NCBI GenBank assembly: GCA_950295325.1
Contig: OX485808.1
Coordinates: 33,565,180 to 33,629,179, forward strand
Direction of reading: 5' to 3'
Origin: Polytrichum commune
Taxonomy: Eukaryota > Streptophyta > Polytrichopsida > Polytrichales > Polytrichaceae
DNA length: 64,000 nt
The notes below the pieces were generated by a model. That model was not told where the DNA came from. It saw nothing but the letters and a program-made list of their open reading frames with translations, and did no database searches. Below, piece by piece: positions 14,520 to 64,000 of this stretch (within the stretch, counting starts at the first letter, position 1; every line of letters begins with the position of its first letter). A program made the translations under genes and the position numbers.

Positions 14520-14522
14520 TAA

Positions 14523-29236: not shown

Positions 29237-30337
29237 CAAGTGTTATGATTTCGGTTACCAAAGATTTCCATCGTGACAATGCTTTTTGGCCACAAGTATG
29301 TTATTCTATTAAAAAGTTTGCAAGGTATGGTGAATGTCAAAACCCTATGTGGAATCCTACATGGAATCCGGAAACTTATGTTTTGGCGAATGGGTGACAG
29401 GCTAGGAAACCTGAGAGTGGCATCAAAATCAAGAGGATGTCCGCACACGTGGTTTTGGAGACTCGACAAGGAGCGTGGTTTTGAGAATACAAATTTGGGG
29501 CTCGCACATTTTGAATGGACTTACCCGAGTCTATCAAGAATTCCTTTTTGTAATAATAATTCTAATAATCGCACACTTGTAAATGGAGCCCACCTCGAGA
29601 AAGGAAGGTGGTGACCTTCCCTTGAAGTTTGGTGAAATAAATGATCAAGGTAAGGAAGAACAAGTTCCCCATTCACGTCCGTGTATAGGAAAACACTGAT
29701 GCTATTTATATCAACTCTGACCTATGGGGATTGGAAGTGACTTAGTGATGGTGATTGTAATGAGCCAAAAGTTTGGCCTCTACCCTTAAGGGGTTAACTA
29801 TAGTTCACTCAAGTAAAAATCATAGTCTTACTCTAAGTATAAAGTAAAACCTATCTTATTACCTTGAATGCTAGATACATGGGAACTCACGATTGCTTGC
29901 AATGATCACATAACTTGCAATATTAAACAAGCATAACACAATCCTATTCATACGCAAGATTATACCAGGGTAAAACACTCTTGTGAGTATTCACTGGTGA
30001 CCTTGAACCACTGGCTGATAGTGGTGGAGACGTACGCATTTCCGAATGAAGTGGTTGATAGTTAGATTCCCGCTGTGAAATCTTCTCTCCACTTGACATG
30101 AAAAACTAGCTAGACAGGATGGAAGCCAAGAACCCACCCATTGCAAAGTAGGCAGTAAACCCCACCTTGCATCAAGAGGATTCTTGAGTAGGGTAGGACC
30201 AACGGGCTCAAATTCACGTCGGATTGCCTGACGTTGGTTATTTATTTGTTTATTTGTTTATGAGTATCCACTTGTTTTATTTTTTTTACATTTGTAAGTC
30301 GACTTAACTCTTCTTTATTCTCATCACAAGTGGACTA
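29237..30337. other. no gene recognised
   Basis: A + frame at 29273-29614 (113 codons) has no recognisable motif. No other gene signal is visible. Confidence 0.3.
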
Positions 30338-36055: not shown

Positions 36056-36442
36056 AACACGATATTCAATATTTTGAGAGAGTGGGATCCTTTCAAAATA
36101 ATATTGCCCATTTGGACCCCTAAAAGTCATGTTAGGTTGATAAATACTAGATTATACTTCAGACGTGTAGTTTCCATTAAAATGAGAGTATGTTAAGTTG
36201 AGAAATCGACTCATTTAGGTTGAGTCAACCTAAATGAGGACAATATTTTGTCAATTTAGGTTGAGTCGACCTAAATGAGGACATTATGTTGTCAATTTAG
36301 GTTGAGTCGACCTAAATGAGGACCTAAATTTTTACTTGTACTCTACAACTTTCCAGTGGTTTTCATTTCATTCTTGGATTAATAGTTTGCTTTATGTACT
36401 CTCAATTCACTGGAAAACTCTCATTTTAATGAATATCGTGTT
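36056..36442. mobile_element. 387-bp MITE related to the giant element, ATTC target duplication
   Basis: The ends AACACGATATTCAATATTTT and, inverted, AACACGATATTCATTAAAAT match the AACACTATATTC termini of the 38448-55289 element except for one base in the first 12. It is flanked by ATTC on both sides (36052-36055 and 36443-36446), again a 4-bp duplication. Inside, at about 36205-36320, are three copies of a repeat of about 48 bp, each carrying a palindrome (TTTAGGTTGA, one base, TCAACCTAAA in the first copy; inner bases vary in the others). No transposase is present; presumably it is mobilised by relatives such as the one in this window. Confidence 0.75.
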
Positions 36443-37895: not shown

Positions 37896-38589
37896 TGCTA
37901 CTCCAACCAATGACTACCCGCCCCGAGTCGCTGGTGGCGAGGGAGCTGTACCCAATCACTGCAGAGAGAAAAGAATTGGGGGGATCAGCACGGCAACCAC
38001 ACAATAAAATCTGTCAAATGAGACTGACTCCATGACCAAGTACTAACCATTGCCATTTTCTTGGTTGTGAGAATTCTACATATTATGTAAGCTTGATATA
38101 ACCTTTCACAAAAAGATCACGTGTCAAGTTACAAAGTGAATTCGAAACAAAAACTATGAGTTTAGACTCATACACTGTCACAAATTTAAATCTCCATACC
38201 GGGTCCAATGAACCTTGTGATTTCACCAAAGAAGATAACCAGCAGATTGGCACACCACCCTAACTGCTCCGTAAAATTTCACACAAACCTCACATGCTTT
38301 GCTTTGGATATTGTTTCTTAGCAACAGGTTCACAAGAGCTCACAGCATGATCAGAAAGCAAGTTATGTCTGGCTGTGAATGTTTTATATTGGAGAGGAGC
38401 ATGAGGTGAAGGATTGCATGGATAAGGTAGACGTGCCTTACACATGGAACACTATATTCGTTAAATTGAGACTTTTTGGGCATTTTGAGACATTCACATA
38501 AATAAGAACAAGGATAAATGGAACACATATTGGAGAAAGTTGTAAGATGCGAACACTTTGAAGCGGGTGTTTAGACCAAGAACCCCATA

Positions 38590-38890
38590 TATAACTCATA
38601 TTTGTGATGGTTTAGGGTGGGCAACCCAAACCTTAGACCAAATTGAAGGGGAAACCTTAAAACATTCATATTATTGCACACAAAATATTAGAGCTTGTAT
38701 GAATATGGTTTAGGTAGGGCAATCCAAACCATAGATCTTATTGAAGGGTTAATATGTTAACCAATATAATATGGCATACAAAATATTCCAAACTCATATT
38801 TGTGATGGTTTAGGTAGGGCAATCCAAACCTTAGACCATATGGAAGGGGAAATCATGTGACACTTATATTATTGCAAATAGAACATACAA
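38590..38890. repeat. left subterminal repeats of the giant element
   Basis: Three diverged repeats of about 100 bp, each carrying a degenerate palindrome (GGTTTAGG..., a few bases, ...CCAAACC) at about 38609, 38705 and 38809, start about 160 bp inside the left terminus. Subterminal repeats near TIRs are commonly transposase-binding arrays in plant DNA transposons; that role here is inferred. Confidence 0.5.
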
Positions 38891-38994
38891 AGTATGGCAT
38901 GTAAAATGCATAGCATGCTAACACCACACATCCATTGGATAGTGCGACCCAAAATGTTCTTGCCTATGGCCCAAAACCCTACGCCTACTATGGC

Positions 38995-39796
38995 CTATCT
39001 AGCCTCGGAGAGTGCCTCTTTTTCTTTTGCCTCTTTTTCTTTTGCTTTTTTTTCTTTTGCCTCTTTTTCTTTTGCTGCGGCTTCTTTTGCTCGCATTGCT
39101 TCAACATTCCTGAAAATCTCCGCCCCGCGACTATAGCCATTCTTGGGGTGACCGCCAACAATAACACATTTTGGATTCCGTCGGCCGCCCGAATTATACG
39201 ACGAAGAATTCGAATACGATGAAGTGGATTGTCTCACATTTCTGGTCATGGCGTACATACGCTCGAACTCGATGGATGCACTAGACCGCATAGGTTTACG
39301 GGTGGGAGCAACCTGCAACGCGTGAATGCAAGAACACACGTGTTAGTTTAGGGAGGAAGACCCAAACGTGTCACACGTTCATTTTTTAAGTGCGGGATGA
39401 TTGTAATGCGCGGTTAACCATGTTTGGGGGGGGGGGGTTCACCTTGTCACCGGGGGCGTTCCCGTCGGAGTCGGCGAGGAGGGGCAATGCGTCCCGCAAA
39501 GGAATAGGAAGGGTTCCACTCTTCGTTGGCCGAGCGTCCATCCGCAGCCGCCGTTGAGGTGTAATATGGCCGCTGGGTCGAGAGGGGGACGTCCGGACGC
39601 ATTTGCGATTTATGCCCTTGAGCGGCGACGGGGACGCAGATCGCCGGAAGATTTGCTTGGGTGGGGGGCTATCGACGACGCCGGCGTCAATAGGCTCCTT
39701 GGAGTAGTCAATGGTTGACGCTGCGTCGTAAACAGTCTCGTAGAAGAAGCTCCCCAAGTTTGACTCGCTCACGATGTCAATCGAGGGCTCCAAACG
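38995..39796 (-). CDS. small Ser-rich/Lys-Glu-rich protein of the giant element (or last exons of the cargo gene)
   Basis: Two exons, 39796-39443 and 39312-38995, with a 130-bp GT-AG phase-0 intron, give about 223 residues. The first exon is Ser/Pro/Arg-rich (SPSPLKG, SPSRPSG). The second has a Ser/Asn-rich linker and ends in a long charged helix of repeated Ala-Lys-Glu units (KEKEAKEKKAKEKEAKEKEA). The upstream exon opens after a good acceptor (GGCTCCAG) rather than a clear ATG, so these may be terminal exons of the cargo gene instead of a separate gene. Function unknown. Confidence 0.45.
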
Positions 39797-39898
39797 CTGG
39801 AGCCAAAATTAAAACAAAACAAAACCCAAGGGAGGAGGGTTTGATAGAGCGCGTGAAAATCAAGATACATATGAAGCATATATTACACAAAGTGGGCG

Positions 39899-39915
39899 GG
39901 CACACACACACACAT
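39899..39915. repeat. CA microsatellite
   Basis: A short (CA)n run lies just downstream of the FCP1-like exon, in the small gap before the next exon pair. Confidence 0.6.
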
Positions 39916-39933
39916 ACAAACACACATAGTGCC

Positions 39934-42900
39934 TCAAATGAGCTTGTTGAATTTCGCGTGTGAGAACAACTCTCTGTACAAATGGTCTCGTGGATCCAAG
40001 TATCTCTCGCCTATCGGATTGTTCCTAACAAAATTGTTTACGGGTAGCCCGCTACCCTAGAGCGCCTGGAGGTATTTACTAAGGTCTAACAAAAATCGGT
40101 CCTAGACCTTCTCGACCGTCCATGTAGGGCAAACTATGAGGTTGGCCGTCGGGTTCAACATGTTCTTTGCGGCGCTGTCGTCCACCATGAGCGTGTTCTC
40201 ACGGGTGGGGCGGACGTCGTAGGGGACGCCTATCAAGGACGGACGTTGGTCCCAAAAAATGGGCTTCAAGACCTTGAGATATTGGGGGGAAGCGGGGTTG
40301 TTTGGTTTTTTGACGACTTTGCCGTCCGGTGTGTACAATATTCTACAGGCTTCCTGTGCTAGGACCATGCAGGGGGGCTCGATGCCCTTGAAGATGAACT
40401 CCACGACGGCATTGGTGTTCTCGGCCTTCATGGAGCTCCACACGACCACCCACCATCGTTGTTGGGCGATCTGGAGGAAGGTCCGAAGCCACGGGCGGAG
40501 GTGAACTAGCTTGCTCTTTATGAACGTGGGCGGCCCGTCGTAATTAGCGTCCTCGGGCTTGCAAAAGGGCACCGTGGGGGTCCTAGGGCAATGAACGCAT
40601 TGGACGAGGACCCCGTTCAGGTCTAACACCAGGAATCGTTTCTTCGGCAGTGGGGGCGGGGCGGGTAAAACCGGGGGTGCCGCCGCGCTGCCCTCTCCGC
40701 TCCTTGGCGAAGAGCGTCGGGGAGCCGCTACGCTATGCTCCGAGCCCTGCGGATACGAGCGAGAGAAAACGGGGGTGACTTATGTCATGCTATGTCCAAA
40801 CGAAGCATTAAGGAAACGAGCGTTCTCGGTGCAAACAGAAAACCATTTGATTCATTTTGGAGGGGGTGCAACAAGGGATACAAGGGATACAAGAGCATAC
40901 AAAATACATTCAAACACAATATACAAGTATATAGGAGTCAAAAATGGTGATTATATTATATACAATGCTCTATGTACATCTTGATTGGGGGGAGCCGCGT
41001 TGAACGATGCGTTCAAACTAGCCTAGTTCTACATCTAACAAAATTTGAAGAGACGCGCCGCCGTGATGAATACTTCGTCGCAAGCTGGGGTAGGTGGACG
41101 AACGAATGGTCGCTGGGGGTGACAAAGGGCGCGAGTGCCGGGGGGGGGGGCCTAAGTTCGTCCTAGCTAGGGGACACGACCAAGGCAAGAAGTCAAAGAC
41201 CCAGGGAGTTTGGGTCGACCGACCCAAACTGAGTGGGGTCAGTGCATTACCTCGCCTTGGTCGTGCCTTGACAACGTTGATGCCGGCATCGCGTGCGCTG
41301 CCCCACCTCTGTCACCGCTGCCTCCGACGACGACGTCAGCCGCAACCTGCTCCTGCAAAGGCTGACTGTCAGGCCTTTGTCCCAACCCAACCTCCGCATG
41401 CGCATCATGCATTGGTTCATCGATTGGGTTAGGAGTAGAGGTATCACCAGGCCCTTGCGGGCCTTCAACATCTAGCATAGGCTCGTCGACCGGGGTCTGA
41501 TGGGGGACGGGGTTTGGGTCGGCCGACCCAAACCCTGCTGCTTGGCGAGGGTCGCTCTGGGACGCTGCAACGTCGGCACTGTTTGGGTCGGACGACCCAA
41601 ACATGTGGGGGTCGTCCTGCTGGTGGTGTGGGGGCAAGAGGATGGGAGGCCGCAGCGGCGGGGGTGCCAACGAGCTGGACGCTCCGGGGACGCGCCAAAG
41701 GTTTGGGTCATCCACCTGCTGGACAGGCGCGTAAGGGCGGGCGTGCGGCTGCAGCAAATCCGCGAAGCTGAAGGAATGCTCCAACGCTGGCCGCGGGCGG
41801 ATATCCTATGGAGGGAAGCCTGCGGGCAAGTGAGGGAATGAACTCGGGGGAGCCATCACCAATCCCTGCGCCAGCATGCCCTGGATCACTTGCGTGATGA
41901 GCTCCGCTTGGGACGGAGTTTGGGCCATCGCCCTTTGCCGCTCCTGCTCCAACAGGAGAGCCCTCAACTCCGCGACTTCGTTGCGGACCGAGGGTTCCTC
42001 GGCAGCAGCCCTCTGCAGTCGCACACGCTGCTCCTCGTCTCGGAGCATTTTTGCGTTCGCCTCCTCCACGGTGAAGACCTCCGGTTTCACCCTCACATTC
42101 CCGGCGAACGCTCTGGGGGAGGCAGGATCAGACCTCAGCCTCTTGGCGAGTTCCATGTCGTCCTCGTCCTCGGAGCTTATTGCGATCGTCTCCTCCACCG
42201 CATAGTCCCCGTACAGCTTCTTCCCCTTCATCCTTCTCCGCTCCCTGAAGGTGGCCGTCGCGTCCCTCGAGTACATGTCCTTCGCGTCGTCCACCGTCAA
42301 CGCGGGCACCAGCCTGCTCTGCGGCGTGGCAGTCCGCATGGCCTTCTTCCGTTGAGGGGCCTCGGATTCTTGAGTGAATCATGTTGCCCCTTCCTCCACC
42401 TCCCCCTCCACTTTCTCTGCTTCCTCCTCCGCCTCCTCCTCCTCTTCCTCCCCCTCCTCCCCAACCTTGCCACCTGCTCCCATTGACGGATTGCCCGGAT
42501 GCAACCCGATGAGCGGTTCTGGCAATTGAACGGGGGCCCGCATGGCGAATTCACCCGGGTCGATTCGCCTCGCCATATCCAAAGGATTCTCGCCCCCCTC
42601 GACGATCTCTTCAACGTAGGATCCGGGTATCCAGTTGAGGATGTCCATTCTCTTGGCCAGCACCTTTTGGGTCCTGTAGAATTGAACATCAGCATCCTCC
42701 ACATAGGAGTAGATGTTCAACCTAGACATCTGCACAATCAAAATCAATACTATTAGTATCACCAAATGAACAAATAATGGAAAATGACATCCAAAACAAA
42801 ATAAGAATAGTTAGTTTGGGTCGAGCGACCCAAACTGTGCATGCCCCTAGTTTGGGTCGTTCGACCCAAACCGTCCATATAGGGACTTCAGGGTTTTTTG

Positions 42901-45712
42901 CTTACCATGGCTGCAAAAATCGGATTGGACCCCCCGAAAACGTTGAAGATGCAGTCCCCTCTCTTCGTGAGGGTCCTCATCATCCGCAGGTAGAACTCCA
43001 TGCGCAGCTCATCCACGGGGTAGTTGGCGTACTTCGCCTCGTCATACAAGCTCTTGCTGGTACCCAACCCTTTTTGGACTTGGAAGAGATTTTCCATCCT
43101 TGCTATAGGATGGCTGGGCACCTTAAGTAGATCAGCTTTGTACACGAAGTACAAGCACAACACGTTGACGATCTTCGTCTTCTTGTCTTTCAACGTGTTG
43201 TACGCCCCCTCCGCCGGTGCAGCAACGTAGTGAGATTTCGAGACGGCATACTCCGGCTACAATTTGCGCACGATCTCGTAAACCTGCTCTGCCCTTCTGT
43301 CCTCGACAATCCAGAGCCAGACGTCGACCTCCCTGAATTTGGGGCTGACGTAGTCCACGAACTTCGACAAGAAAGGATCATAAAAAGGGGTGCTCATAGT
43401 CCCCTCGAATGAGGCTCCAAGGATGTTCCTGAAGTCTATCATTCCGAAGGGGAAGCGGTCCCAGGCTCTAGTCCTGATCGCCTTCCTTGACTCAGAGCCC
43501 GGCCAACCCTGGATCCTGAGAGGTTCGACAGTGACCATGTTGAATTGCGCATCGCCTTCGAAACTGACGATCTTCTTCTCCTTTATGAAGTTGGAAAAGG
43601 CCCGCACTAAGTGTTCGGGAAGCGCCCGGTTCCTCCCCCCCTTCACGAGCTTGGATATGAGGAAGTCGTCTCCCGCCTCCCTCATGAGTGCCGCCATGGA
43701 CGCACTGGTAAACTTATATTCGGCTTTGAAGGCCCTCCAGTGCGCCTCGTCGACCTCTCCGTCCACGATAAGCTTCTTCTCGGGCACCAGCTTGTGCAGC
43801 TCCTGGACAATGGTCGTCTTCTTCTTCCTGTTTTCCGTCCATTCCTTCATGGTGTAGCATGAAGGGACGAAGATCTTGGGTTTGGTGAAGACGATCTTAG
43901 GGTGGACCCAGCATCTCTTCGCCGTCGTCTCCACGTGTAGGATGTGGGACGCCGCTTTTCCCATCTCTGTCTCGGAGAGACCTTGAAGCGCTCTGAAGAA
44001 CTCCCTCACCAGAGGCTTCATTTGCTTGAAGCGCCCAGTCTGGTTGAAGAGCATGCCGGTGTCGGGGTCGATGAGGTCACCCGTCTCGTGTTTTTCAAAA
44101 ACACTCTTCCATCTTGCCCACACGGAATCGGACGTTGTGATCAAATAGATTTCTCCTCTCAGCTCGTTATACTTTTTCTGCTTGTGGCTAGCATTGTCGA
44201 TCGAGGAGAATTTATTGATCATTTGATATTTGAAGTCCTGCATAGGAAGTCATTAGCACATGTTAGACAACACATAATGGAACAACAAATGCAACAGCAG
44301 TTTGGGTCGAACGACCCAAACTATGAACCTGGCAAAAACAACAAAACAATGTAGGAGTTTGGGTCGATCGACCCAAACATACTCACCTCCCATTTGGGGT
44401 TCTTGTCTTTAGCATTCTCCCTTTCCTTGGGAGGCCTGCCATAAAACTCCCACACCTCCCTCGAGGCCATGATGTTTCTGATCCACGATGCCTGATAGAC
44501 CCTCTTTTTGTTCCCCATGTTGAAGAACCTGGAGATGTCGCTGAGGACCGTCTCGTTGTCCGACCAAACCACCAAAGCTTTCCAAACTTTTAGCTTCTCC
44601 TTCTGGTTGTTCGGGTCGTCCCACTCGGTCATCAGTTGGATTTTTTTCGAGGCCTCTACACTGTGCTGCCCGTCAATCAGCCAGAAATCTCCTTTGGAGA
44701 TTGCCGGCCACATCTCAGGCGTCGGCATTCTTTTCAGCCCTTGTGGCATGACAACAATTGTCTGCCTGTCGTCCTTGAACTGCCCGCCCAAGATTTGAGC
44801 GACCATCCAGTCGACGTAGGCGTCCTCCTTGGCTCGGACGCACTTCTCTGGTGGCGCAAGGTGGCACTGCGCAATGTTGACCTCGAATTTGAAGTCCCTG
44901 CCCATGAAGAAGCAGTGCAGGCATTTTGTCTCGAAGTTGTTGTTTATTTTTTGTATTTCGCCTGCATCCACCTCTTGGCCAGGCTTCGGCATGCGGAGCT
45001 CCGGGGAAACAGGCTCGTCAGTCATCCCCGATGACTCTCTTCCCCTCTTGGAAGGGGTCGTCTGACGGCTTGTTGATGGCGTTGGCGTCTCGCTGTCAGC
45101 CGGCATTGTTGTAGTGCTCGTCCGTCTCGAGTCTGCAGGGACCGCCCGCGGTTTCCTCACAGTTTGTGGTCTTGAGGACCCTGCGCCTTCTTCCGTCGTT
45201 GCCTTCCGCCTCACAGGCTGCTGCGTCTTGGGTTTGCTTTGCAGCGCCTTGTTGAGAACCGTGATAGCCTGTTTTAACTTCGTGAACCTGCTCGCAACCT
45301 TCGTGTTGGTTACAATGCCATCTATGAATATGGCCTCCGGTTTTATGGTTTCAGGGTCGACGCAAGTCTCCTTGGCGTACAGGGGGTCGAAGGGCTCCGA
45401 GAACTGGTGCATGAACATGTGGACGTTCTGCACGGCGGAGTTCTCCAGTATGACGTCGACGTAGTCCCCGAGAGCTTGGACGGACGCCACCTCCCATCCC
45501 GTCAGCATTGCCCAGGTGTGCTGCTCGTGGGCCCCCACCTTCACCACGAATAGCAGCTTGAACATGGAGGCCTTCACCACCTGAACGGACCATGCCAGAA
45601 CGTTGCCATCTTTTGGGACGTATGAATCGTCCTGTGGTGTTTCATACTCCTGCCAAAGGTGGTCTGGCGTGAGCATGAACCACCTTTCACCTGGTCTCTT
45701 CTTAGGGGCCAT
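39934..45712 (-). CDS. cargo gene: ParB-like / DNA-methyltransferase-like / FCP1-like multidomain protein, disrupted
   Basis: The exon chain 45712-44387, 44237-42906, 42729-41251 and 40746-39934 has GT-AG introns, all phase 0, spanning about 1,650 codons. Exon 1 (442 aa) holds a ParB/sulfiredoxin-like motif FWLIDGQHSVEAS at 343-355, followed by the usual helical tail. Exon 2 ends with GDCIFNVFGGSNPIFAAM and exon 3 starts MSRLNIYSYVEDADVQFY, together matching the C-terminal SAM-binding motif I region of beta-class amino-methyltransferases. The upstream catalytic DPPY-like motif is not evident (MIDFRNI lies there). Then come a Glu-rich tract, a coiled coil and a Pro-rich linker. Exon 4 is an FCP1/SCP-like HAD domain (LVLDLNGVLV, VVVWSSM, TLMVDDSAAKNML). 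About five in-frame stops but no frameshift interrupt the chain. Joining exon 4 to exons 1-3 is inferred from phase; exon 4 could be separate. Confidence 0.6.
41208..41602. repeat. three 22-bp palindromes in and beside cargo exon 3
   Basis: Palindromes with arms GTTTGGGTCG and CGACCCAAAC lie at 41208-41229 (centre AC, in intron 3), 41512-41533 (centre GC) and 41581-41602 (centre GA). The last two lie inside the coding frame, where they are read as FGSADPN and FGSSDPN on the minus strand without breaking it. Confidence 0.85.
42814..42871. repeat. two 22-bp palindromes in cargo intron 2
   Basis: Copies at 42814-42835 (centre AG) and 42850-42871 (centre TT), 36 bp apart, sit inside the 176-bp intron 42905-42730. 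The arms are perfect. Confidence 0.9.
44300..44378. repeat. two 22-bp palindromes in cargo intron 1
   Basis: Copies at 44300-44321 (centre AA) and 44357-44378 (centre AT) sit inside the 149-bp intron 44386-44238. The second begins within about 10 bp of the 5' splice site, so it could influence splicing if it folds in RNA. Confidence 0.9.
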
Positions 45713-45739
45713 CTGTAATTCAAGAAATCGAGAATGTCA

Positions 45740-46584
45740 GTTTCGGTCGATCGACCCAAAGTATTGCAAAGTGCACTTAGCATTTGGAGGATTGAGAGAA
45801 ATTTATTATATTTGACATCATGAATTCAAGGTTTGGGTCGATCGACCCAAACCTTGCACCCATGTTGCGCGTGTTCTTGATAGGTCCTCGTTAGAGAGTA
45901 TGGTTGTATTAGTATAGTATATGCTTATATCTATGAGTCCACCAATTTCAATTTCTGGCAACAATAAATATAAATTTATGTTTGGGGATGCCAGAACCAG
46001 TCCTTATGTTTGGAGGATTTTAAATTCGACATCATTTGGGTTGGGTTTAGGGTTGAGGATATATGCTTTATTTGGGTCGAACGACCCAAACATGAGGCTG
46101 CAATGTTTGGGTCGCTCGACCCAAACATTTACTTAATTTTCAAGATAGTTTTCAATGTTCTATTAGATTTTGAATTGTGGTTTACTTCGTCTCCCTGCAC
46201 TGTTTGGGTCGATCGACCCAATTTTTAACTTAATTCTCAAGCCAATTTTCAATGTTCTATTAGATCTCAAATTGTGATTTACCTCGTCTCCCTGCACTGT
46301 TTGGGTCGAACGACCCAAACTTTAACTTCATTTTCAAGCCAGTTTTCAATGTTCTATTAGATTTTAAATTGTGGTTTACTTCGTCTCCCTGCACTGTTTG
46401 GGTCGATCGACCCAAACATCATAGGCAAGAGTTTGGGTCGAACGACCCAAACTTTAACTTAATTTTCAAGCCAGTTTTCAATGTACTATTAGATTTTAAA
46501 TTTTGGTTTACTTCGTCTCCCTGCACTGTTTGGGTCGATCGACCCAAACATCATAGGCAAGAGTTTGGGTCGATCGACCCAAAC
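45740..46584. promoter_or_regulatory. palindrome array upstream of the cargo gene
   Basis: Ten copies of the palindrome lie directly upstream of the minus-strand start at 45712: 45740 (two mismatches), 45831, 46071, 46105, 46202, 46299, 46396, 46431, 46528 and 46563. From 46105 on they are part of a tandem repeat with 97-bp and 132-bp spacing. The copy at 45831 extends to a 30-bp perfect palindrome. The position suggests a promoter-proximal binding array; no TATA box could be fixed. Confidence 0.7.
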
Positions 46585-47162
46585 TTTAACTTAATTTTCA
46601 AGCCAGTTTTCAATGTTTCATTATATTTAGATTGTGGTTTGGGTCGTCTCCCGAAACTTATGAATTTCCATAACTTGTTTAATGTTTTTCCATAACTTGT
46701 TTAATGTTTAGACAAGATATACAATGCTCATACATTGTATATGAAACAGGACCCTAAATAAATGAAGGTCAAGTGAAATTGTATACCTTGTTGATCACAG
46801 TCTTTCAAGCTGCTCTCAAATCTGATTTCCCAAACCAGAACCCAGAATCTCTATGATAAAAATCTACACTCATAAACACCTGAGATGAAATATGATTCTC
46901 ACAAGCACACTAAAACCCTCTCACAAACACCCTGATTCTTGCAAGCTGAGGCCTAATTTGAAAGAACTATGCCTCTCTATCATACCCGAATCTGATGTCA
47001 CTCAATGCATGCACTCTACAACAAGAAAAGAGTTCAACACAACAAAACCTGCCTAAAGTCACTCAATGCGTGCATTCTACAACAAGAAGAGAGAAACAAA
47101 ATAGAATCAGAGAAGAGGAGGAGACTACCTCTCTATCACACCCTAATCTGATGTCACTCACT

Positions 47163-47754
47163 CATGGGTAGATCACTCTAAGGCATTTTTGTGCACCACG
47201 TGCGGCTGGGGTTTTTTTGTTTTGGGGCTATTTACCTTCAATGGTTGAATTAAAGCCTCCCTATAATTACTTAAATTTCAAAAATGGCCCATTTGTTTGC
47301 ACCCTTCCATTACTTATATTGTCCAAGTCACTGCAATTTTTTGTACTCTATATTCCTTTTAAGGAATAAAAGCTAATCTACTTCCTAACGCAATTGACGA
47401 GTGTTGAGGGAAAGCATGGAAACAAAGAAAGGTGCAAACAATAATACCATTGCAAACAAAGTTATGAAGAAAACACATAGGAGACCATAGCAAAGTAATA
47501 TCATTGCAAACATTGTTATGATGAAAACACATAGGATCCTTCTAGGATCCTTATCTTCAGCCCCTATATTAATTTTACAAAAAAATAATGGCCCACATTT
47601 TATGTCCATCTAACTTACTTATAATGGGATTGTCTACATTTAATGGCCCCTTCATTATTTGGAAATCCTTTATAATTTTTATTTCAAATGATTTTAATCC
47701 TCTCTATATTATGCCGCACGTCGTTTTTAAAATGCACTAAGTGATCTACCCGTG
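47163..47754. mobile_element. hAT-like MITE nested in the giant element, CACTCACT target duplication
   Basis: A 592-bp element with ends CATGGGTAGATCACT and, inverted, CACGGGTAGATCACT, flanked by the 8-bp duplication CACTCACT (47155-47162 and 47755-47762). A related host duplication around 46990 shows the sequence without insertion (GTCACTCAATGCATGC). Eight-base duplications are typical of hAT elements. It has no coding capacity and postdates the giant element. Confidence 0.65.
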
Positions 47755-48867
47755 CACTCACTGCATGCACTCTGCAACAAGAAAGGACTTCAACACAACA
47801 AAACCAAACTGAAGTCATTCAATGCGTGCATTCTACAACAAGAATAGAGAAACAAAATAGAATCAGAGCCAAGGAGGATAAGCATCAGAGAGGAGAGAAA
47901 TGAAGAGAAAGAAGCGGGAAGCGGCGCGTCCAAGACAAAATGAAAAGGTGGGAGTGGAAGCGCTTGGCGCGGCGCTATGGAAAGGCGCGGCGGCGTTTCC
48001 AAGAGCGGCGCTTGGCGCGGAGGAAGAGATGAAGAAAAAAAGAGAAAGAAAAAAAGAGGAGGGGAGAGAAGGAGAGAGCGGAAGGGGTCACCCTAAACCC
48101 TCGAATCCGGGCCATTAGATTGCGCCGGGCAAATCAACGGCTCAGAAGCCTCGCGGGCCAACACCCTGCCAGGTGTCGACACCTCCTTGGTTAAGGTGGT
48201 TGCCCGCGAGGCTTGTGGTGTTGACACCTGCCACCCTAGGCAGATTGCCTTCCTGGTTGTCCTTGCCCGTAGGTGCGGGACATAGGAGGGCCGGCGCCTC
48301 TCTTGGCCGCCCGGCCCCGGCCTTCTAACCCGCTATTCATTAGCGGCAATTCAATACCACTCAAAAACCTACGTGGACTAAGGTATTCCACAAAATTAAC
48401 ACCATCGCCAACTCATATTTTAATGGTGTTCAATTGAATGATCACCCGTTGGAATTGATAACATCGTAGAATGTAGCCATTATCGTTTTGGTGTATGAAT
48501 AATGTAATTTATGGAATTATATGAGAGTGTTACAAAGTCTAAGAGGAGTAAGTCATAATTATATTGCAATCTACAAAGGCAATTACACGGTGCAATAATA
48601 TAAATATGGTAACCATTCACATGGTTAACAGTTTAGGATTATGTATTGTAATTTATATGATGGTTGTTGGTAGAGGACAATGCTTTAGTCTATAATGGAT
48701 ACCCTAACAAGTAGCATTAGAGTGAACATTAATATATGTACTTAGAAGTTCACATTTGAAGTACATGGGAGAAACAAATGATTACAAATGTATCTACTGC
48801 AACCCCATGGAGTTCACATATCATATGAAGTCATTTAAACATTCAGTTTGATGTTTGATGATGCCTA

Positions 48868-48888
48868 AACCCTAAACCCTAAACAACA
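48868..48888. repeat. interstitial telomere-like box (CCCTAAA x3)
   Basis: Three consecutive units of the plant telomeric heptamer, read as CCTAAAC. Short telo-boxes of this kind occur in plant promoters, so this is not evidence of a chromosome end. Confidence 0.7.
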
Positions 48889-50448
48889 CAAACCATAACT
48901 GGATGGCACATAGGTCAAATGACATGGGCCTTGGTGCTTGTAGTTTCCAATACAAATGTATATTGTCATCACAACATCCTAATTCACAAACGTGAAAGAT
49001 GGATGTGTGGTTTTTCACGAATGAACGCACTAAAGGAAATAAATGATATTGTGCTCACAAGTAGGTGATACAATATTAACCTATAACCTTGTCACCTGGT
49101 AAGAAGAGCATAAGAACTAGATTATAATGGATAGGATGTTGTTCATGTTAACATGTTATTTGGAATAGTGAAATATTATATATTAATTTAAGGTAGATTT
49201 CATGTTGTGAATGATATGAGGACATACCTTTTGAACTTTGTATGTTTTGCTCACACACATTGGTAGAGTTCAAGGGACTTCACGATAGGTTCAAACATCC
49301 TTGAAAGATTGAACGTGCCAAATGTCATTTGTGGTTTATGGTTCCATTAATGACTTCCACATAGGTACTAGGTTATTGTCACACTTGGAGCCTTGAGGAT
49401 GAAGCAATATTGGGTGCACACATTACAACACAACATATGTTCTTTTAATTAGCGGAAATTGAAAGTTGGCCAAATTGTTCAAGTTTGTCATGGCATTAAT
49501 TATTTGTTTTCAAAATATAAGTCCTCATGTGAGAGTCTAAATAATAGCATTAACTATTATATTTAGTGACTTTTAGTATATGAAGTTTTATAATACATGC
49601 ACATCTTTTGTCAATATATTGTTTGAAATATACCATAATGTTTGACTACAAGTAGAGTAAAATCCCTTAATAGATATAATCTTACATATTGTCATAGGGT
49701 TATTGGTATTCAGTGTATGCGTTCATATGTAGTGTATCAAAATCTTTATATCCTTTTTAGTTATATGATAGTTAGTGTTTGATACACTTAAAACGAACGC
49801 ATACACTTCCTATTACTAACCCTATGAGAGTAAGTAACATTAAATGTAAACTCAAACACTAAATATCCACTATGGTGATATATGGAAGTTACATATAGGG
49901 ATTTAGTATTAGTAAGGATGTGAGAAAAAAATACAACAATGATAAAAGGAGAAAGGAGATGGCAATAGGGAAGGTGGTGGTGTATTCATGTATAAAACTA
50001 ATTATGAAAGAGTTGAAGAATAGTGTTGACCAAGTTAGGGTGGTAACAACTTTAAATATATGTTGAATTATTCATTTGGTGGTTGGGGCAACGAAGAGCC
50101 AAGCTAAATATACATTGTCTATTATTGACAAGAAGCGGGAAATTGAGTAAGAAGGTTTGAATTAACGTCCAAAGGAGACCAGGCGGGAAAGGCATCCAAA
50201 GAGGATGCCCAAAGCGGAGGCGGGTAGTATAAAGAGCCCAACCCCCCCAAATGCTGGTTCTTTCTTTCATGTCCCAATCCTGAGATTGCTGCAAGCTCTC
50301 TAAATTGGAGCTGTAATACACGGTTTGTATACGCTTCCATTCATGAGCAGCAAATTACAACAAGCATCTATGAGTTCAGTTGTCCCAAATAGGTTATATA
50401 TAGATTAATAGAGAATCACCCGAATAAATAGGCGGATTTTGCGGAATT

Positions 50449-51488
50449 GTTTGGGTCGGTCGACCCAAACCCAGCCCTACAGTGTGGGTGCTCACTGTTG
50501 TGAGCCTGAACCCATTCTGCCTCATGGTTTGGGTCCATCGACCCAAACCCAGCCCCTAAGTGTGGATGTTGTCTGTAGTGAGCCTGAACCCATCCTGCCA
50601 AAAGGTTTGGGTCGCTCGACCCAAACCCAGCCCTCTAAGTGTGGGTGCTCTCTGGAGTGACCCTAAACCCATCCTGCCAAAAGGTTTGGGTCGCTCGACC
50701 CAAACCCAGCCCCTAAGTGTGGATGTTGTCTGTAGTGAGCCTGAACCCATCCTGCCAAAAGGTTTGGGTCGCTCGACCCAAACCCAGCCCTCTAAGTGTG
50801 GGTGCTCTCTGGAGTGACCCTAAACCCATCCTGCCAAAAGGTTTGGGTCGCTCGACCCAAACCCAGCCCCTAAGTGTGGATGTTGTCTGTAGTGAGCCTG
50901 AACCCATCCTGCCAAAAGGTTTGGGTCGCTCGACCCAAACCCAGCCCTCTAAGTGTGGGTGCTCTCTGGAGTGACCCTAAACCCATCCTGCCAAAAGGTT
51001 TGGGTCGCTCGACCCAAACCCAGCCCCTAAGTGTGGATGCTGTCTGTAGTGAGCCTGAACCCATCCTGCCAAAAGGTTTGGGTCGCTCGACCCAAACCCA
51101 GCCCTCTAAGTGTGGGTGCTCTTTGGAGTGCCCCTAAACCCATCCTGCCAAAAGGTTTGGGTTGCTCGACCCAAACCCAACCCCCTAAGTATGGGTGCTC
51201 CCTGTCGTGAGCCTGAACCCATCCTGCCAAAAGGTTTGGGTCGCTCGACCCAAACCCAGCCCCTAAGTGTGGATGCTATCGTAGTGAGCCTGAACCCATC
51301 CTGCCAAAAGGTTTGGGTCGCTCGACCCAAACCCAGCCCCTAAGTGTGGATGCTGTCTGTAGTGAGCCTGAACCCATCCTGCCAAAAGGTTTGGGTCGCT
51401 CGACCCAAACCCAGCACCTAAGTGTGGGTGCTCTCTGTATTGAGCCTGAACCCATCCTCCCAAAAGGTTTGGGTCGCTCGACCCAAAC
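50449..51488 (+). promoter_or_regulatory. 14-palindrome tandem array upstream of the transposase gene
   Basis: Fourteen copies of the palindrome sit at 50449, 50527, 50605, 50684, 50762, 50841, 50919, 50998, 51076, 51155, 51234, 51311, 51389 and 51467. They are spaced 77-79 bp, each followed by CAGCCC(T)CTAAGTGTGG-like sequence. Two monomers form a 157-bp higher-order unit repeated nearly identically three to four times from 50560. The array ends 213 bp before the transposase start codon. Long open frames on both strands here are a by-product of the repeat. A regulatory or transposase-binding role is inferred from position. Confidence 0.85.
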
Positions 51489-51701
51489 CCAGTCTCTAAG
51501 TGTGGATGGGATCTGGATGCCAGTGTGGCCACTGGCCTTCCGAAACCTTTACAAACCCAATGGCATAGCAGTCATATGAACTTGTATGAGCACTGAGTAT
51601 TTGCAATTTTGTTTATATATGATGGTTTTTTTGTTCTTCGATTTGAACCTACAATTTTTGTGATTTTTTGACAATGTTCAATGTTCATGTGTGTAGGCAG
51701 A

Positions 51702-54700
51702 ATGGATGGGTTTATTGAAATAGGGGATTGGTCATCTGATGACATGGCCACTTGGCCATCTGCATCTGATGATGACCTAGACATTGTCGGGGAGGCTACT
51801 ATGGCTGACAGTGCGGATGAAGATCATTTGGATTTACCTTCGTCTTCCGTACCGCAGTGTCCCATTGTTGAATGTACGCCTCTTTCAAGGGCTTCGTGGG
51901 TGAATTTGGAGGTGATACTTCTTAACGATAGTGGAGTTGTTGTGGCGGAGGGGATTTGCCGTAACACCCATCCGCAAGATTGCATTGATGAAAACCCGCT
52001 TGGCACTGAGGACGTTGGGGTTGTCATATTGGAGTCGGTCGTTCATTCCGAGGTGGATCCCACTCATAGGTTCTCCCTCCGCAGGTGGCCATTGAGGAAT
52101 GTCACAATTGATGGAGTTAGCTTGCGTGAACATGAGCAACGACACATGCAAATCGAAAAGGAGGTGCAATCAAACATGCGGCCGCGCAAGGGTCAAAGAA
52201 AGTACGATACATTGGCACGTCCTGCTCCGTCTGCAACTGATTGTAAACGTCAAAGGTTGCTCGGGGAGGAGTCCATTAGAGAAGTTGCCACAAATGATTG
52301 TTGTGTGCATCGTTGTTGCCAATTGTTTCCAAGGGGTAAATTGAAGGCCATCCGCGAAGAAATGTGGCTTGGAGATATCCGTCTAAGATCCACAAGAAAA
52401 CTTGATGTCCATAGGGCGATACATGTGAATGGGACGGGTCGCAAGGTCATCACCATTGAAAACATAGACGTGTGTTGTAAGGCATGGTACACCATTCACG
52501 GTGTGTCGAAAGCGGACTTTTATAGACAAGCTGCTTATGCCAAGGAAGGCCGCCGGTCCCGTCACCATGGTAACGTGGGTTTAAAGAAGCCTAGGGAAGC
52601 AACAAGGCAAACAACGGCCACTCTAGCAACCATCATTGTCCCTCTTGCCGATGCAATGCCGCACAAAACACGCACACTCACAACCGGTGAAAAGGTTGTG
52701 GAGAAAGTTCTTCCCACAGGCACAAAATGGAAAGACATATTGTTGGACGTGAATGCAGTTGGCGAGAAGATTAGGTTGGAGCCAATTTCATTGTCAAAAT
52801 TGAGTGCAATCAAGAAACAAAACTTTAGCGAATACATTACAAAAAGACGAGGGGACAAATTTGCCAGGTGCTCTAATTGCGAGAAGTTGAAGCGCCTCCG
52901 GGATGCACACACAATGGGTACCGAGTCATATGCAGCGCATCAATTGAACTATTTCAAGCACGTAAACATGCAAGAGGCACACCGTAATGATTACTACACA
53001 AATAGAGCTTTGTCCATCTCCAGGCCCTTGGAGGTTCTTACGGTCATCCATGACAAAATGGACCATGCCAAAACAACCTCCCCATGTTTTGCAAATCGAA
53101 TCAAGGCCACTGATGGGTTTTTTAAGTTGCATGTATCGGTTACAGGTGAACTTCGAAACAATGTCATGACATACCCTAAATGTTGTGGTTTTTTATTCCG
53201 TGATGTATTTGAGAACATGAATTCACTCAAAATGGTTTAGTTATATCTAATCACGTTGGGTTGGCATTGCAGGAATGATTGCACATGGACACGGTGATGT
53301 CAAGTTTGCTCATTATGCTCTTGATTTGTATCCAGCGGATTCAAACCACACGATAGGGTCATTTGCAAGGCTTTTACGTGATTTAGAGAAACCACCAGCC
53401 TATTCTTCAGGATTGTTATTTGAAAACACGGGTTCAACACCTCTATATGAAGCGTTGTTGGATGGAAAAGATGTATGCTTCCATTCGTTGCCAGAGCCAC
53501 CCAGTGAACCCGTGATTGCCAAGAAGTTGCTTCCCACTTTGCGTGTCCAATTGGACAATTGTGCCAAGGACAATAAAAGTAGATATGTATTTGCATATTG
53601 GTCGTTGTTGGTTGGAAAAGGCATTTTCAAGGAGGTTTTTGTGTCCTTCCTATTGGTAGGCCACACGCACGATGATATTGATGCATCTTTTGGGCGGTGG
53701 AGCATGAAGTTGCGGGAGGAGGATTTTCCTACAATCCCGTTATTGATGAAGTCGTACATGGATTTGGATAACGTTCCGGTCATCCCCCATATGATTGAGG
53801 AGGTGCCAGACTTCAAGGCATTTATAAAACCTTATATTCGAAGTGGAGCTCACCGATTGATCGGGCATACGAAGGCACAACAATTCCGCTTCTATATGCG
53901 TGACGATGGTGTCCCGGCCATGCAATACAAGTTGTTGTGCACGACACAAGACTGGAGCCCGCCGGAGGGTCTTCTTGTGTGGCGCGTGGATGCGGATGGA
54001 AAGACCATGTTACCGGATGGGGAGCCTAGGCCTTGCAAGCCAATAGCCATGAAGAATTTGGAGGATATTTTGAAAGGTATATCAGGCTTCATACAATATT
54101 GGGAGAGTTTGAAAATAGCGGATGTTGGCGGATCATGTTGGCATCGTTATGGAAGTTGGATACATTATTGGACACGTGTTCGTGCCGCCTTGGCAGACCT
54201 CCACCAAGATAGCCCTCATACTTTGAGGCATGGATTTTGGCCACAAACACGAGTCGATGTACAAGCTTCGGAGCCTAGTCTTTTGGGAAATGGAGAGGTT
54301 CGAGAGGAATTTGATGTGGACGACCATTACGTGGGGCCGGCTAGTAGTCGTCCCCCACCATCTTTCCGCATTGCAGTGGATTGTCATGAAGGTTATATGC
54401 TCATTTTGCGTCCTGAAGACGAGACATATGCGAAGCCAGTGTGGGTGGCAAGAGCTTTGTCCAAACCCAATTTTGTAACTTCCAGCCCTCATTTTCGACA
54501 AATACAAGTGGAGTACTATCGACCGACAACAAGGAATGAAGATGTGATTCGGCATTATACAGGCTGCGATACAAACCCTAACTTTCGGTGGAAGGTGGAT
54601 TCTGAGCACGGTCCATCTTGGGTAGATACAGATTCCATATTCATAGCATGGAAACCACGGAATAACCATAGTGGATCAGTGTCCATCCCTCAAAAGTACA

Positions 54701-54759
54701 TAACTTTTGCAAAAGACAACCTTGCTCGGATTGCACAAGAAGCAACCCACGTTGAATGA
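51702..54759 (+). CDS. DUF7869-like transposase of the giant element, intact
   Basis: Two exons, 51702-53145 and 53273-54759, with a 127-bp GT-AG intron, give 976 aa without interruption. The acidic N-terminus is followed by a conserved block (VVVAEGICRNTHPQDC ... LGTEDVGVVI ... RRWPL, about 75-135) seen in plant transposon proteins. A Cys-rich zinc-binding-like module follows (NDCCVHRCC, VCCKAWYTIHGVSK, CSNC). The RNase H-like core has HDKMDHAK (Asp 451/454), VQLDNCAKDNK (Asp 576) and VGHTHDDIDASFGRW (Asp 615/616/618), a plausible DDD triad. The start at 51702 follows an acceptor-like GTGTAGGCAG, so a 5' non-coding exon in the palindrome region is possible. The homolog at 60826-63955 has the same intron. 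DUF7869 naming is from memory of the family pattern. Confidence 0.75.
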
Positions 54760-55289
54760 GAAGTTGGTAGGATTGTGTTAGCATGATTATAGTTTAATAC
54801 GTAATTATAGCAATATAAATTACACATATGTGTGCTCTTCAAAATTGGGGCAGAGTTTGGGTAGAACTTTCGAATACTATATTGTTTGGAGTTGGATGAA
54901 TATCCATTTACTATATTTCAAAAAAAAATGAAGTTCATCTTATTATTATGTTTGGGACTATATTGTCGAATGAAGAAATATGCATTTATTACATGCACTT
55001 TGTATGTTGCAATGTCTATATTCTATTGCGCATGCTAATAATAGAAATCATTTTATATGTTTTTTGGGTGAAACTTGTTTGGAGTGCTCTACCCAATGTG
55101 TTTTTGTTGATGAAGTTGGTGTCGAGTGCTCTACCATATGTGCTTATGTCCGCACATCATAGATTTGGGATATTAGAACATATAATATAATTGAGATTGT
55201 TGACAATATAGTTTCGGGCCTCTTCAAGTTCTTTGATCCATATATTAATTTGAGACTAGAGAAAGTCTCAATTTAACGAATATAGTGTT
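54760..55289. other. right subterminal region of the giant element
   Basis: 530 AT-rich bases lie between the transposase stop codon and the right terminus. Scattered GTTTGG and CTACCC half-sites are visible, but no complete palindrome. The final 28 bases form the right terminal inverted repeat. Confidence 0.5.
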
Positions 55290-55293
55290 ATGG

Positions 55294-60171: not shown

Positions 60172-60415
60172 AAGGTGTGGTGGAAGTGGGGAAATTTGGT
60201 ATGGAAGGAGAGATTGAGAGGTTGAAAAGGGACAAATAGGTTCTTATGCTTGAATTGGTGAGACTGCGACAACTGCAACAAAATACCGAACGGGACTATT
60301 AGGTACTACAATCTTTATTGTATGAGCTGGTGAGAGCAGCTGAATTAAAAAAACCTAGAGCTCTTTATTTTGTTGCAGTTATAGAAGTGGTTTAAAGTGT
60401 CATTGAAAGGCCCTA
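60172..60415 (+). pseudogene. partial copy of the HSF gene (exon 2 end plus intron 2 start)
   Basis: About 244 bp align with 19694-19936 of the HSF gene without rearrangement: the second half of exon 2, the 5' splice site and the first part of intron 2. Because intron sequence is included, this is a DNA-level duplication, not a retrocopy. Differences are mainly C-to-T or G-to-A changes, including two that create stop codons in the HSF frame. The copy ends exactly at the terminus of the transposon starting at 60416. Confidence 0.85.
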
Positions 60416-63400
60416 AACACTATATTCGTTAATCGGAGACTTTTGAAAGTCTCAAAATAAAATATGCCCATGGTTTGGGATGCCAATATTGTGGGCATAC
60501 GGAATATTGGGAACATCAAGAACATGACGATTTAAAATTTTGCACGTAAAGCATATTCTTAGTACTAAAAATAGGGAATTTCGTTTAAAATGAAAACGTG
60601 AGGTCCTTGTGGAAAATAACAATCGACTCTAAAAAAACAAATGGTTTATGTCATTATAGAGTTTGGGGTGCGCATCCCATAAGTAAGGCTCTTATGAATT
60701 ATTTGGATGGCACATCCCAAACGTATACCACAATGGAGTGTGTCTAAGTCCACTAAGTCTAATAAAAACCAAGTCTACTAAGCACCCATGTTTTTCGCCA
60801 TTAACTCCCACCTAATATGTTATGTTTACACATCTCCATCTTCCGCTTCATATCCATTCTCGGCGTCATTCACCGCAGCTGCAATACGTGCCAAGTTGTC
60901 TTTGGCAAAATCTATATGTTTTTGGGGGATGGTCATTGTTTCTGATTTGGAACCTTTCCGCGGCTTCCAAGCACAAAGTATAGTATCCGTGTTTTTCCAA
61001 ACCGGTGTGTACGCTGAGTCCACTGTCCACTTAAAATTCTTTTTGGTGTCCCAACCTAAATAAGTGCGTAGCACGTTTTGGTCTTTAGTGCTTGGACGAC
61101 AATATTCCACCTCAATTTGACGAAAGTTGGGGCTAGTTCGAACAAAATTGGGTGAAGACAATGCTTTCACCAACCAAATTGGCTTGGGATGCTCCTCATC
61201 CTCTGCTCGTACGAGGACCAAATAACCTTCATGGCAATCAACACCTACACGAAACGACGGTGCCGGTCGATTGCAGGCAGGGCCAACGTAATGCTCGTCC
61301 ATTGCGAACTCTTCACGAATGTCTCCATTGCTAAAAAACATGGTGTCGGACTCGACAACCGTTAAACGGCTTTGTGGCCAAAATTCTTGTGTTAAAGTTG
61401 TACGAGTGTCGCCACCAAGTGTCATTAGGGCCAAGCGAATGCGATCCCAATACGCAATCAAAGGTTCATGAGTATCTCTAACACGTCTAGTGATGTCCTC
61501 CTCACACAACTCTTTCCAATATTCAATGAATCCGGATATGCCTTTGATGATTTCCGGCCCATTCCTCATGGGGTCGGGTTTGGAAGGCTTTGGATCCCCA
61601 TCCGGGAGCAAACATTTCCCATCATTGTCTTGACGCCATACGAGTATACCATCATCCGGGCCCCAATTAGGAGATGTGCACAAAAGCTTAAATTGCATGG
61701 CCGGGAGACCATCATCCCTTATATAGAATCGGAATTGTTGTGCTTTGGTATGTCCCACCAAACGGTCCCCTCCCTTCAACATGTATGGCTTGATGAAGGC
61801 CTTGAAATCTGGTACTTTCCTCAATCATGTGCGGAATTACCGGCATATGGTCCAAATCCATATACGATTTCATAAGAAGTGGTATGGTTGGAAAATCTTC
61901 TTCGTGCAACTTCATGCTCCACCGTCCGAAAGACGCATCAATGTCATCGTGTGTGTGTCCCACCATCAAGAAAGACACAAACATCTCCTTGAAGATTCCT
62001 TTCGCCACAAGCAAGGACCAAAAACAAAATACGTATCGACATTTGTTGTCCTTCGCACAATTATCAAGTTGAACGTGGAGAGTTGGAGGCAAAGGTTTCG
62101 CACAAAGAGGTTCTCCGGGTGGCTCCGGCAATGACGACATACAAACCTCCTTCCTCGCAAGCAGTGCTTCGTAAAGGGGTGTCGTTCCACAACCATCAAA
62201 CAATGCACGTGATGAATGTACCGGTGGCTTCTCAAGATCGCGCAAGAGTTTTACAAATGATCCCACCGTGTGGTTAGCATCGCCAGGGTAAAAATCCAAA
62301 CCATAATGGGCATACTTAACATCTTCATGTCCGTGGGCAATCATCCCTGGGAAAAAAACAAACAATGCATGAATGAAAACAACAACAACCCTAAACGGAT
62401 GTATGGAGTTGAAACCTAACGCAAACACACCTAGTAAAATTAGATAATTTGAACACATATTTGTGATTTCATACAAACCTGTGACAGCTACGGGCAACTT
62501 GAAGAGTCCATCCGTGGCCTTTATTTTCCATGCATAACAAGGGCATGCGGTCTTTGCATGGTCCATTTTATCATGGATGAATGTTAGAACCTCTGTAGGC
62601 CTCATTATGGATAGAGCACGGTTCTTGTAGTAATCTTGACGGTGAGCCTCTTGGTTGTTGACATGTTCAATATATTTTCCTTGGTGTCTGGAGTGTGATT
62701 CGGTGCCTATGGGGTGGGCGTCCCGAAGACCTTTGTATTTTTCACACGTCGTACACCTAGCGAACTTGTCCCCAGGTCTCTTCAAAATGTATTCAGCAAA
62801 CTGTTGGTTTTTAATCACACTCAACTTGGACAAAGAAATGGGCCCACATCCCGCTATGCGACCCACTTCGTTAATGTCCGTTAAAATGTTCTTCCATTTT
62901 GTTCCCGTGGGCAAAACCATTTGTACAACTTTCTCCCCTGACGACAATGTTCTCGTCTTGTGGGGCATTGCATCGGCCAATGGGACAATGATGGTGGAGA
63001 GTGTCGCGGAGGCTTGGAGTGTAGCCTCCCTGGGTTTCTTTGTGCCCGAATTTCCATGAAATCGAGAGCGCCGACCCAACGATGAATACTTTTGAAACCT
63101 ATAAAAGTCAGACTTTGAAACGGCGTGGATGGTATACCACGCGGTACAACACACTTCCACATTCTCAAGTGTGACCACCTTATGCCCATGGGTATCAATG
63201 TGCACATTTCTGTGGACCTCGAGTTTCTTTGCCGATCTCATACGGAAATCCGCAAGCCACATCTCTTGACGTAGGGACTTAATTTTCTCCCGCGAGAAAA
63301 ATTGGCAACATTTCCGATCGCAACAGTCCTTGGCGGACACAAGACGGATAGATTCGTCTCCCAATATGCGATCCCGTCTACGTTTTTTATCTCCTCGAGG

Positions 63401-64000
63401 CACACGGTTAGAATCATATTTGCGCAGGCCTTTGCGAGGACGTATGTTGGCCAACAAAGCTAATTGCGTTTGCTTATGGCGCCGCTCATGGTCCAACAAG
63501 CTCACTCCGTCATGGAGAACCCGACATAGAGGCCATCGACGCAAGGAAAATCTCCATGTCGCCGGGACCTCAAGCGGAAGCAATGAATTCAAAATGCACA
63601 CACCAACATCGTTGGGACCAAGGGGGTTGGCATCCACACAATCACGGGGATCGGAGTTTCTACATATGCCATCTGCCACAGGGACACCAAGGTCGTTGTG
63701 TAGGACGACATCAAGGCCAACCCATTGCTCCCTCCCAAAACCGGCACACAAAGGAATGTCATCGTGGTCATCCCTGGAATGTAGAGATTGTTCGTGCACT
63801 TCCAAAGATTCATGGGAGGATGTATCCACAAACACCTCCATCACGTTTGGCATACCATTACTACCCGCCGACGGGGAAAAAAGTTCACAGTCACCATTGG
63901 AGGACGAAGCAATTGTGGGAAACTCCAATGAACTATATGCCACGGGCAGCGCCATCCAACCTAAGCAAACCAATAATTAATCACAAACAAAACAAGCACA
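60416..64000. mobile_element. second element of the giant-transposon family, truncated by the window edge
   Basis: It starts AACACTATATTCGTTAATCGGAG, sharing the first 17 bases with the terminus at 38448. A transposase homolog reads toward this end, the same arrangement as in 38448-55289. The flanking HSF copy breaks after CCTA, so CCTA is the predicted target duplication. Between the terminus and the transposase stop (60416-60825) lie three imperfect palindromes built on TTTGGGATG and CATCCCAAA (near 60470, 60660 and 60697). Confidence 0.75.
60826..63955 (-). CDS. DUF7869-like transposase, second copy (one frameshift)
   Basis: Minus-strand exons 63955-62479 and 62346-60826 are separated by a 132-bp GT-AG intron at the same position as in the 51702-54759 homolog. 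The same motifs are present: VPVADGICRNSDPRDC, Cys-rich KDCCDRKCCQF, HDKMDHAKTACPCYAW, VQLDNCAKDNKCRYVF and VGHTHDDIDASFGRWS. The core is very similar to the first copy, while the N-terminus differs more. A single frameshift near 61815 (between PVIPHMIEE and VPDFKAFIKP) separates the catalytic part from the C-terminal third, so this copy is probably inactive or recently damaged. Confidence 0.75.

Follow-up and report, generated by a model that had tools for sequence, protein, structure and literature searches.

A giant Sola-like transposon family of Polytrichum commune with a second core gene and palindrome arrays that may serve self-recognition

A terminal inverted repeat (TIR) transposon of 16.8 kb lies complete at positions 38448–55289 of the 64,000-nucleotide stretch of Polytrichum commune DNA analyzed here (the window; assembly GCA_950295325.1, contig OX485808.1, positions 33,565,180 to 33,629,179 of the forward strand), which raises the question of what the large second gene that accompanies its transposase gene does for it. 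Together with arrays of short palindromes, the second gene looks like a kit for recognizing, and perhaps protecting, the element's own DNA. On balance, we lean toward the view that this is a giant Sola-like TIR family whose second core gene encodes a palindrome-directed self-recognition protein, likely one with anti-silencing activity. This view builds on gene conservation, splice signals, purifying selection, and subfamily-exclusive palindrome arrays by promoters and in introns, all of which were observed, and on predicted folds of the second-gene product.

The element and its conserved second gene

The left (38448–38475, plus strand) and right (55262–55289, minus strand) terminal inverted repeats were complementary at 28 of 28 positions, and the directly read sequence gave ATGG on both sides (38444–38447 and 55290–55293). 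The left flank reads ACACATGG before the element's AACACT, and on the right AGTGTT is followed by ATGGTTC. Because these flanks agree over ATGG alone, the target duplication is 4 bp and no longer, and the exact 28-bp inverted termini bordered by ATGG that an earlier sequence-only reading had described were thereby reproduced. The element ends read AACACTATA, with the duplication outside the AA. When the 28-mer was searched allowing three mismatches, the window gave three matches, namely the two termini and one further match at 60416, where a second element begins, compared with 0.00 in shuffled sequences. The source genome (407.8 Mb in 64 contigs) was searched for relatives, and ten full-length elements of 16.0–17.5 kb were assigned by their termini and palindromes to subfamilies A (seven), B (two), and C (one).

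The second gene occupies about 39934–45712 on the minus strand and has at least four exons. Exon 1 (44387–45712), whose frame is open, is predicted to form a PH/PTB-like barrel (a weak assignment) followed by a ParB/Srx (CTPase) fold. Exon 2 (42906–44237, one in-frame stop) is predicted to contain a helical region followed by an N6/N4 DNA-methyltransferase fold, and exon 3 (41251–42729, two in-frame stops) is of low complexity and coiled-coil-like. Exon 4 (39934–40746, two in-frame stops) carries a NIF/FCP1-like phosphatase domain (PF03031, E 2e-11). The window copy is broken in exons 2, 3, and 4; some other copies have open frames in all four exons. Two minus-strand open reading frames (ORFs) at 38998–39342 and 39389–39808, conserved in other copies and partly also in subfamily B, may be additional 3′ exons or form a small third gene of their own; their assignment is uncertain.

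Homologues of the second gene's minus-strand ORFs were present in all ten full-length elements, some of them broken; the longest ones listed showed 76–98% identity within subfamily A, compared with 39–44% between A and B or C. The splice signals were kept as well. The exon 1 donor after NPKWE was found in 11 of 11 copies, the exon 2 acceptor in 11, the exon 2 donor in the nine copies where the motif was located, the exon 3 acceptor in eight of the eight located, the exon 3 donor in 11, and the exon 4 acceptor in the ten located. The ratio of nonsynonymous to synonymous divergence (dN/dS) was 0.05 and 0.07 for exon 1 and 0.06–0.10 for exon 2 (seven of 12 pairs computable and five saturated, A–B pairs being left out), 0.26 for exon 3 (one pair), and 0.09–0.37 for exon 4 (nine pairs). 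Among 1237 candidates for the exon 2 protein in the source genome, 91 were scored, a lower bound on the copy number, and 73 were stop-free. On the listed part of one contig (C1), four of five stop-free exon 2 copies lay inside terminus pairs, and the fifth was 4.6 kb from an unpaired terminus. These sequence comparisons mark the second gene as a core gene that is conserved and under purifying selection, and whose four exons would be spliced into one product. Its conservation and low dN/dS rule out passive cargo. Thus, the large divergent gene reported earlier is indeed divergent and multi-exon, whereas the term cargo does not hold for a gene conserved in ten of ten elements. For the same reason, we disfavor as hardly credible an ordinary Sola-type element that captured a host gene by chance, with recent bursts mimicking conservation: NIF is a common eukaryotic domain and gene capture is frequent among plant transposons, but the gene is present in every full-length element, and the three subfamilies are ~40% identical with low dN/dS.

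The silent divergence of one element pair (L022/L028) dropped from 0.73 in exon 1 to 0.43 in exon 2 and 0.13 in exon 4, which suggests mosaic exchange or recombination between elements. The middle of the element was mostly unalignable among copies.

The structure predicted for the exon 2 region had N6-adenine and N4-cytosine DNA methyltransferases as its closest folds. The helical region that follows the ParB fold, in exon 2, has no fold assigned to it; the ParB family proper has a helix-turn-helix that recognizes its palindrome. The NIF domain exceeded the Pfam gathering score (44.3 bits in the window copy versus 21.8; L022 scored 52 bits and L012 60 bits), and its motif reads DLNGVL, with N in place of the second D. 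Divergence between subfamilies A and B was largest in the N-terminal part of exon 1, at residues ~200–280 and 361–400 of exon 2, and at the end of exon 3; being spread over several regions, it marks no single domain as the specificity determinant. A search of PHROGs returned nothing significant.

Subfamily-specific palindromes

With up to two mismatches allowed, the window element contains 31 copies of the A-type palindrome GTTTGGGTCGNNCGACCCAAAC, and the other window positions before 60416 contain none. The sequence-only reading had not mentioned these palindromes. Outside the second-gene exons and the transposase ORFs lay 29 of the 31 copies. Ten copies (up to two mismatches) form an array at 45740–46584 upstream of the second gene, and 14 copies, spaced by ~78 bp, form another at 50449–51488 upstream of the transposase gene. 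Intron 1 holds two copies (44300–44378), of which the first comes right after the splice donor, intron 2 two (42814–42871), and intron 3 one (41208–41229). The intronic positions, above all the one beside the intron 1 donor, would suit palindromes acting in RNA as intron or leader hairpins that affect splicing or small-RNA production. We regard this as very unlikely, since 24 of the 31 copies stand in the two upstream arrays, outside the identified exons and introns, and the joint change of both palindrome arms between subfamilies is also explained by dimer sites in DNA.

Genome-wide, 9231 exact A-type and 3737 exact B-type (TTACGAACGNNCGTTCGTAA) sites were counted, and the reversed controls gave none; a background of 54,203 bp contained no palindrome. 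In 11 full-length elements, exact palindromes numbered 13–31 per element in the eight A elements, 21 and 23 in the two B elements, and 13 (ACGGACGNNCGTCCGT) in the C element, and the types were never mixed within any of the 11. Homologous introns 1 and 3 hold the palindrome of their own subfamily in A, B, and C copies, indicating that sites at the same position were replaced together.

Two shorter derivatives bear on what the palindromes are needed for. A 7.1-kb B derivative (L069) has no detectable transposase and retains only an exon 4 fragment of the second gene; nevertheless, it carries 40 B sites at up to two mismatches, 18 of them exact by the core pattern. At least one derivative unable to encode the second gene has therefore retained or amplified its palindromes. 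No palindrome is present in a 3.6-kb deletion derivative of subfamily A (L068), which has a 4-bp duplication and still carries the second transposase ORF together with part of the first; this indicates that transposition itself does not need the palindromes. The latter observation bears on an alternative that we rate as rather unlikely, in which the palindromes are binding sites of the transposase or of a transposition complex, comparable to CACTA subterminal repeats, and the second gene encodes an accessory transposition factor. There is a precedent in En/Spm, where accessory DNA-binding proteins have repeated sites, and degenerate palindrome copies (families D2 and D8) do occur near the left end. 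However, the exact copies are placed in introns and in mid-element upstream regions, away from the ends, a transposase has no need to sit on introns, and L068 has termini and a duplication with zero sites.

Genomic copies, transposase, and other repeats

Exact matches to the 13-bp terminus numbered 776 forward and 807 reverse (1583 in total), compared with 3 and 10 (13) for the reversed control. The family is thus very abundant, with well over a thousand termini, and is a major component of the source genome; the rarity of a single element, as supposed earlier, did not bear out. Target duplications were surveyed in all 29 neighboring plus-then-minus terminus pairs that the listed matches contain at spacings of up to 42 kb, all on contig C1, leaving out more distant neighbors and unpaired ends. 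Among the 26 pairs closer than 25 kb, including the window copy, 24 had an exact 4-bp duplication, whereas left and right ends taken from different elements agreed over 4 bp in 7 of 650 combinations. None of the 26 agreed over 5 to 9 bp. The pairs without an exact duplication were L011 (two of four bases), L037, and L060 (three of four each). Three of the four pairs of 35–42 kb (L062/L063, L064/L065, and L066/L067) also had exact 4-bp duplications, indicating that larger or nested family members exist.

The transposase gene lies on the plus strand as two ORFs, one of 522 amino acids (51672–53240) that contains a Cys/His-rich segment and the first of the conserved D blocks, and one of 502 amino acids (53251–54759) that matched DUF7869 (Pfam E 1.2e-40, supported by alignment), as the sequence-only reading had proposed. 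In an alignment of 23 sequences, the D-containing blocks HDKMDH, LDN/MDN, and GHTHxDxD were kept wherever the rows cover them. The best named homologues came from the mosses Ceratodon purpureus and Physcomitrium patens. In the source genome, 1859 first-look candidates for the transposase yielded 85 scored copies, again a lower bound, and 70 of the 85 were stop-free; dN/dS of the second exon was 0.07–0.22 in seven of eight pairs, one pair being saturated. A PDB search with the transposase gave no match, and the literature search found no paper on DUF7869.

Regarding the superfamily, the 4-bp duplication excludes the canonical forms of CACTA, hAT, Mutator, and Harbinger, as had been argued. CACTA/EnSpm elements have a 3-bp duplication beside 5′-CACTA; the terminus here does contain CACTATA, but the duplication precedes the AA and is 4 bp long, and CACTA was rejected on these grounds. 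Mutator and hAT, with target duplications of ~9 and ~8 bp, were rejected because no pair agreed over 5 to 9 bp. Zisupton/KDZ was likewise rejected, since the 8-bp duplication given for Zisupton in the parts of the source at hand (PMC12730594) was found in none of the 26 pairs. In the available portions of a review, Sola elements are described with 4-bp duplications, a DDD transposase, some lengths above 15 kb, and a presence in the moss Physcomitrella (PMC10741241). The present family resembles them in duplication length, size, and moss presence, and its transposase has three conserved D blocks, whose catalytic role is putative, so that naming Sola as the nearest candidate by duplication length was reasonable. 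The transposase is probably DDD-type and Sola-like, a likeness drawn from the description of Sola and not from transposase sequence.

Related copies and sites also occur inside the window. The joined flanks of another element (L013) aligned over the junction, with a single GTAA, to 447–487 on the plus strand (identity at 34 of 41 columns, ungapped; 151 of 221 in a longer, gapped alignment). This is a related empty site inside a repeat, not an orthologue. The second element, of subfamily B by its terminus and palindromes, occupies 60416–64000 with its transposase on the minus strand and runs off the window, with nine exact B sites just past the window end. The repeats at 60172–60415 and 19694–19936 were 94% alike. 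Because this repeat ends exactly where the second element starts (60415/60416), the 19694 copy may extend into that element's empty site. A 387-bp element at 36056–36442 has related termini (AACACGATATTCA) and a 4-bp duplication (ATTC), and it contains a 41-bp unit repeated three times in tandem, with the inverted repeat ATTTAGGT...ACCTAAAT in every unit; it is possibly a non-autonomous family member with its own palindrome type.

Further repeats were observed elsewhere in the window. Long inverted repeats of ~600 bp at 2748–3346 and 12901–13536, with pieces 84–93% alike, enclose ~9.5 kb and are possibly another large transposon. Direct repeats at 14060–14522 and 28776–29239, 87–100% alike and ~14.7 kb apart, are possibly retroelement long terminal repeats or a duplication. 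A perfect 39-bp palindrome without spacer lies at 6672–6749, adjoining an inverted repeat at 6486–6669.

Proposed role and comparison with known systems

In the mechanism that we propose, a dimeric element-encoded protein, most likely the second-gene product, would recognize the palindromes of its own subfamily. The bound protein would accumulate on element DNA, by analogy with ParB-family proteins that do so from parS, and its methyltransferase-fold and phosphatase parts would keep the element transcribed despite host silencing. We infer such recognition, and the resulting open state of the element, from VANC, ParB/VirB, the phage fusions, and the fungal TET/JBP transposons compared below. 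A more specific version is put forward tentatively, as an attractive but doubtful possibility: a eukaryotic transposon with its own parS/ParB-like clamp, which would load at the palindrome arrays, spread, and block or reverse silencing, with sites and protein changing together as new subfamilies arise.

Several observations weigh against this mechanism. When exons 1 and 2 were searched against PDB and Pfam, both as single sequences and as profiles, neither a ParB protein nor a methyltransferase was matched, so that both assignments come from predicted structures, and the Foldseek E-values were weak (3e-3 at best, with all of them above 1e-3). In the alignment and four further copies, the conserved arginine is missing from the ParB phosphate motif, which reads GQHS, and DFRxIPG stands in place of DPPY in methyltransferase motif IV; thus, either activity may have been lost. 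Furthermore, L068 lacks palindromes, the exact duplication was missing in two of the 26 shorter pairs, and the transposase or another part of the element could be the palindrome binder.

The same motifs bear on an alternative that we consider improbable, in which the ParB/methyltransferase protein places N6-methyladenine or N4-methylcytosine on the element, marking or protecting it as self without opposing silencing. The predicted fold neighbors, which are N6-adenine and N4-cytosine methyltransferases, would suit this, as would the fusion of phage ParB folds to such enzymes in the parts of that study at hand (PMC12704722). However, the checked copies have DFRxIPG rather than DPPY or DPPW, and motif I is altered, which points to a possibly non-catalytic relative. 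The catalytic motif IV of N6/N4 methyltransferases is (D/N/S)PP(Y/F/W).

The transposon itself is probably of a known, Sola-like kind, and the ParB/methyltransferase/phosphatase gene with its co-varying palindromes is probably what is new. Neither this gene nor palindrome arrays are mentioned for Sola in the consulted sections of the review (PMC10741241), and the literature searches, as far as the retrieved texts extend, found no earlier account of a eukaryotic transposon that carries a ParB-fold/DNA-methyltransferase-fold gene. For few transposon families is silencing evasion understood at the molecular level, namely through VANC of the VANDALs and, as a proposal, TET/JBP in fungi. Fungal DNA transposons carry TET/JBP genes with a proposed role in escape from methylation or silencing, and so likewise encode their own DNA-modification-type enzyme (PMC12730594, in part). 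That enzyme is a dioxygenase and not a ParB/methyltransferase fusion, the elements belong to other superfamilies with other duplication lengths, and palindrome arrays are unmentioned in the portions available.

The fold pairing predicted for the second gene is the same as in phage proteins, which often join a ParB fold to an N6/N4 methyltransferase, according to the parts of that work at hand; its main text mentions neither transposon nor plant (term counts 0; PMC12704722). VirB, a ParB relative, loads at palindromic parS-like sites, spreads, and relieves H-NS silencing, as described in the accessible part of its source (PMC10653881). Unlike the present system, both are prokaryotic and have the canonical nucleotide motif.

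In layout, the family resembles VANDAL elements, which are Mutator-type. In Arabidopsis VANDAL21, the excerpted source describes an anti-silencing protein, VANC, that binds a short motif dense in the VANC and VANB introns and upstream of VANA, arranged as tandem repeats and changing along with the protein (PMC5735166). Both systems thus have a subfamily-specific short motif in many tandem copies in introns and upstream of the element's own genes, whereas the VANC motif is a 9-mer and not a palindrome; they are compared here by layout, not by protein sequence. The family offers a second system of VANC-like architecture, that is, a trans factor with a dense subfamily-specific cis motif, built from other protein parts, and its three natural subfamilies with distinct, unmixed motifs make the specificity of trans factor and site directly testable. 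If the clamp version proposed above is true, a plant genome would harbor VirB-like anti-silencing that arose convergently with VANC.

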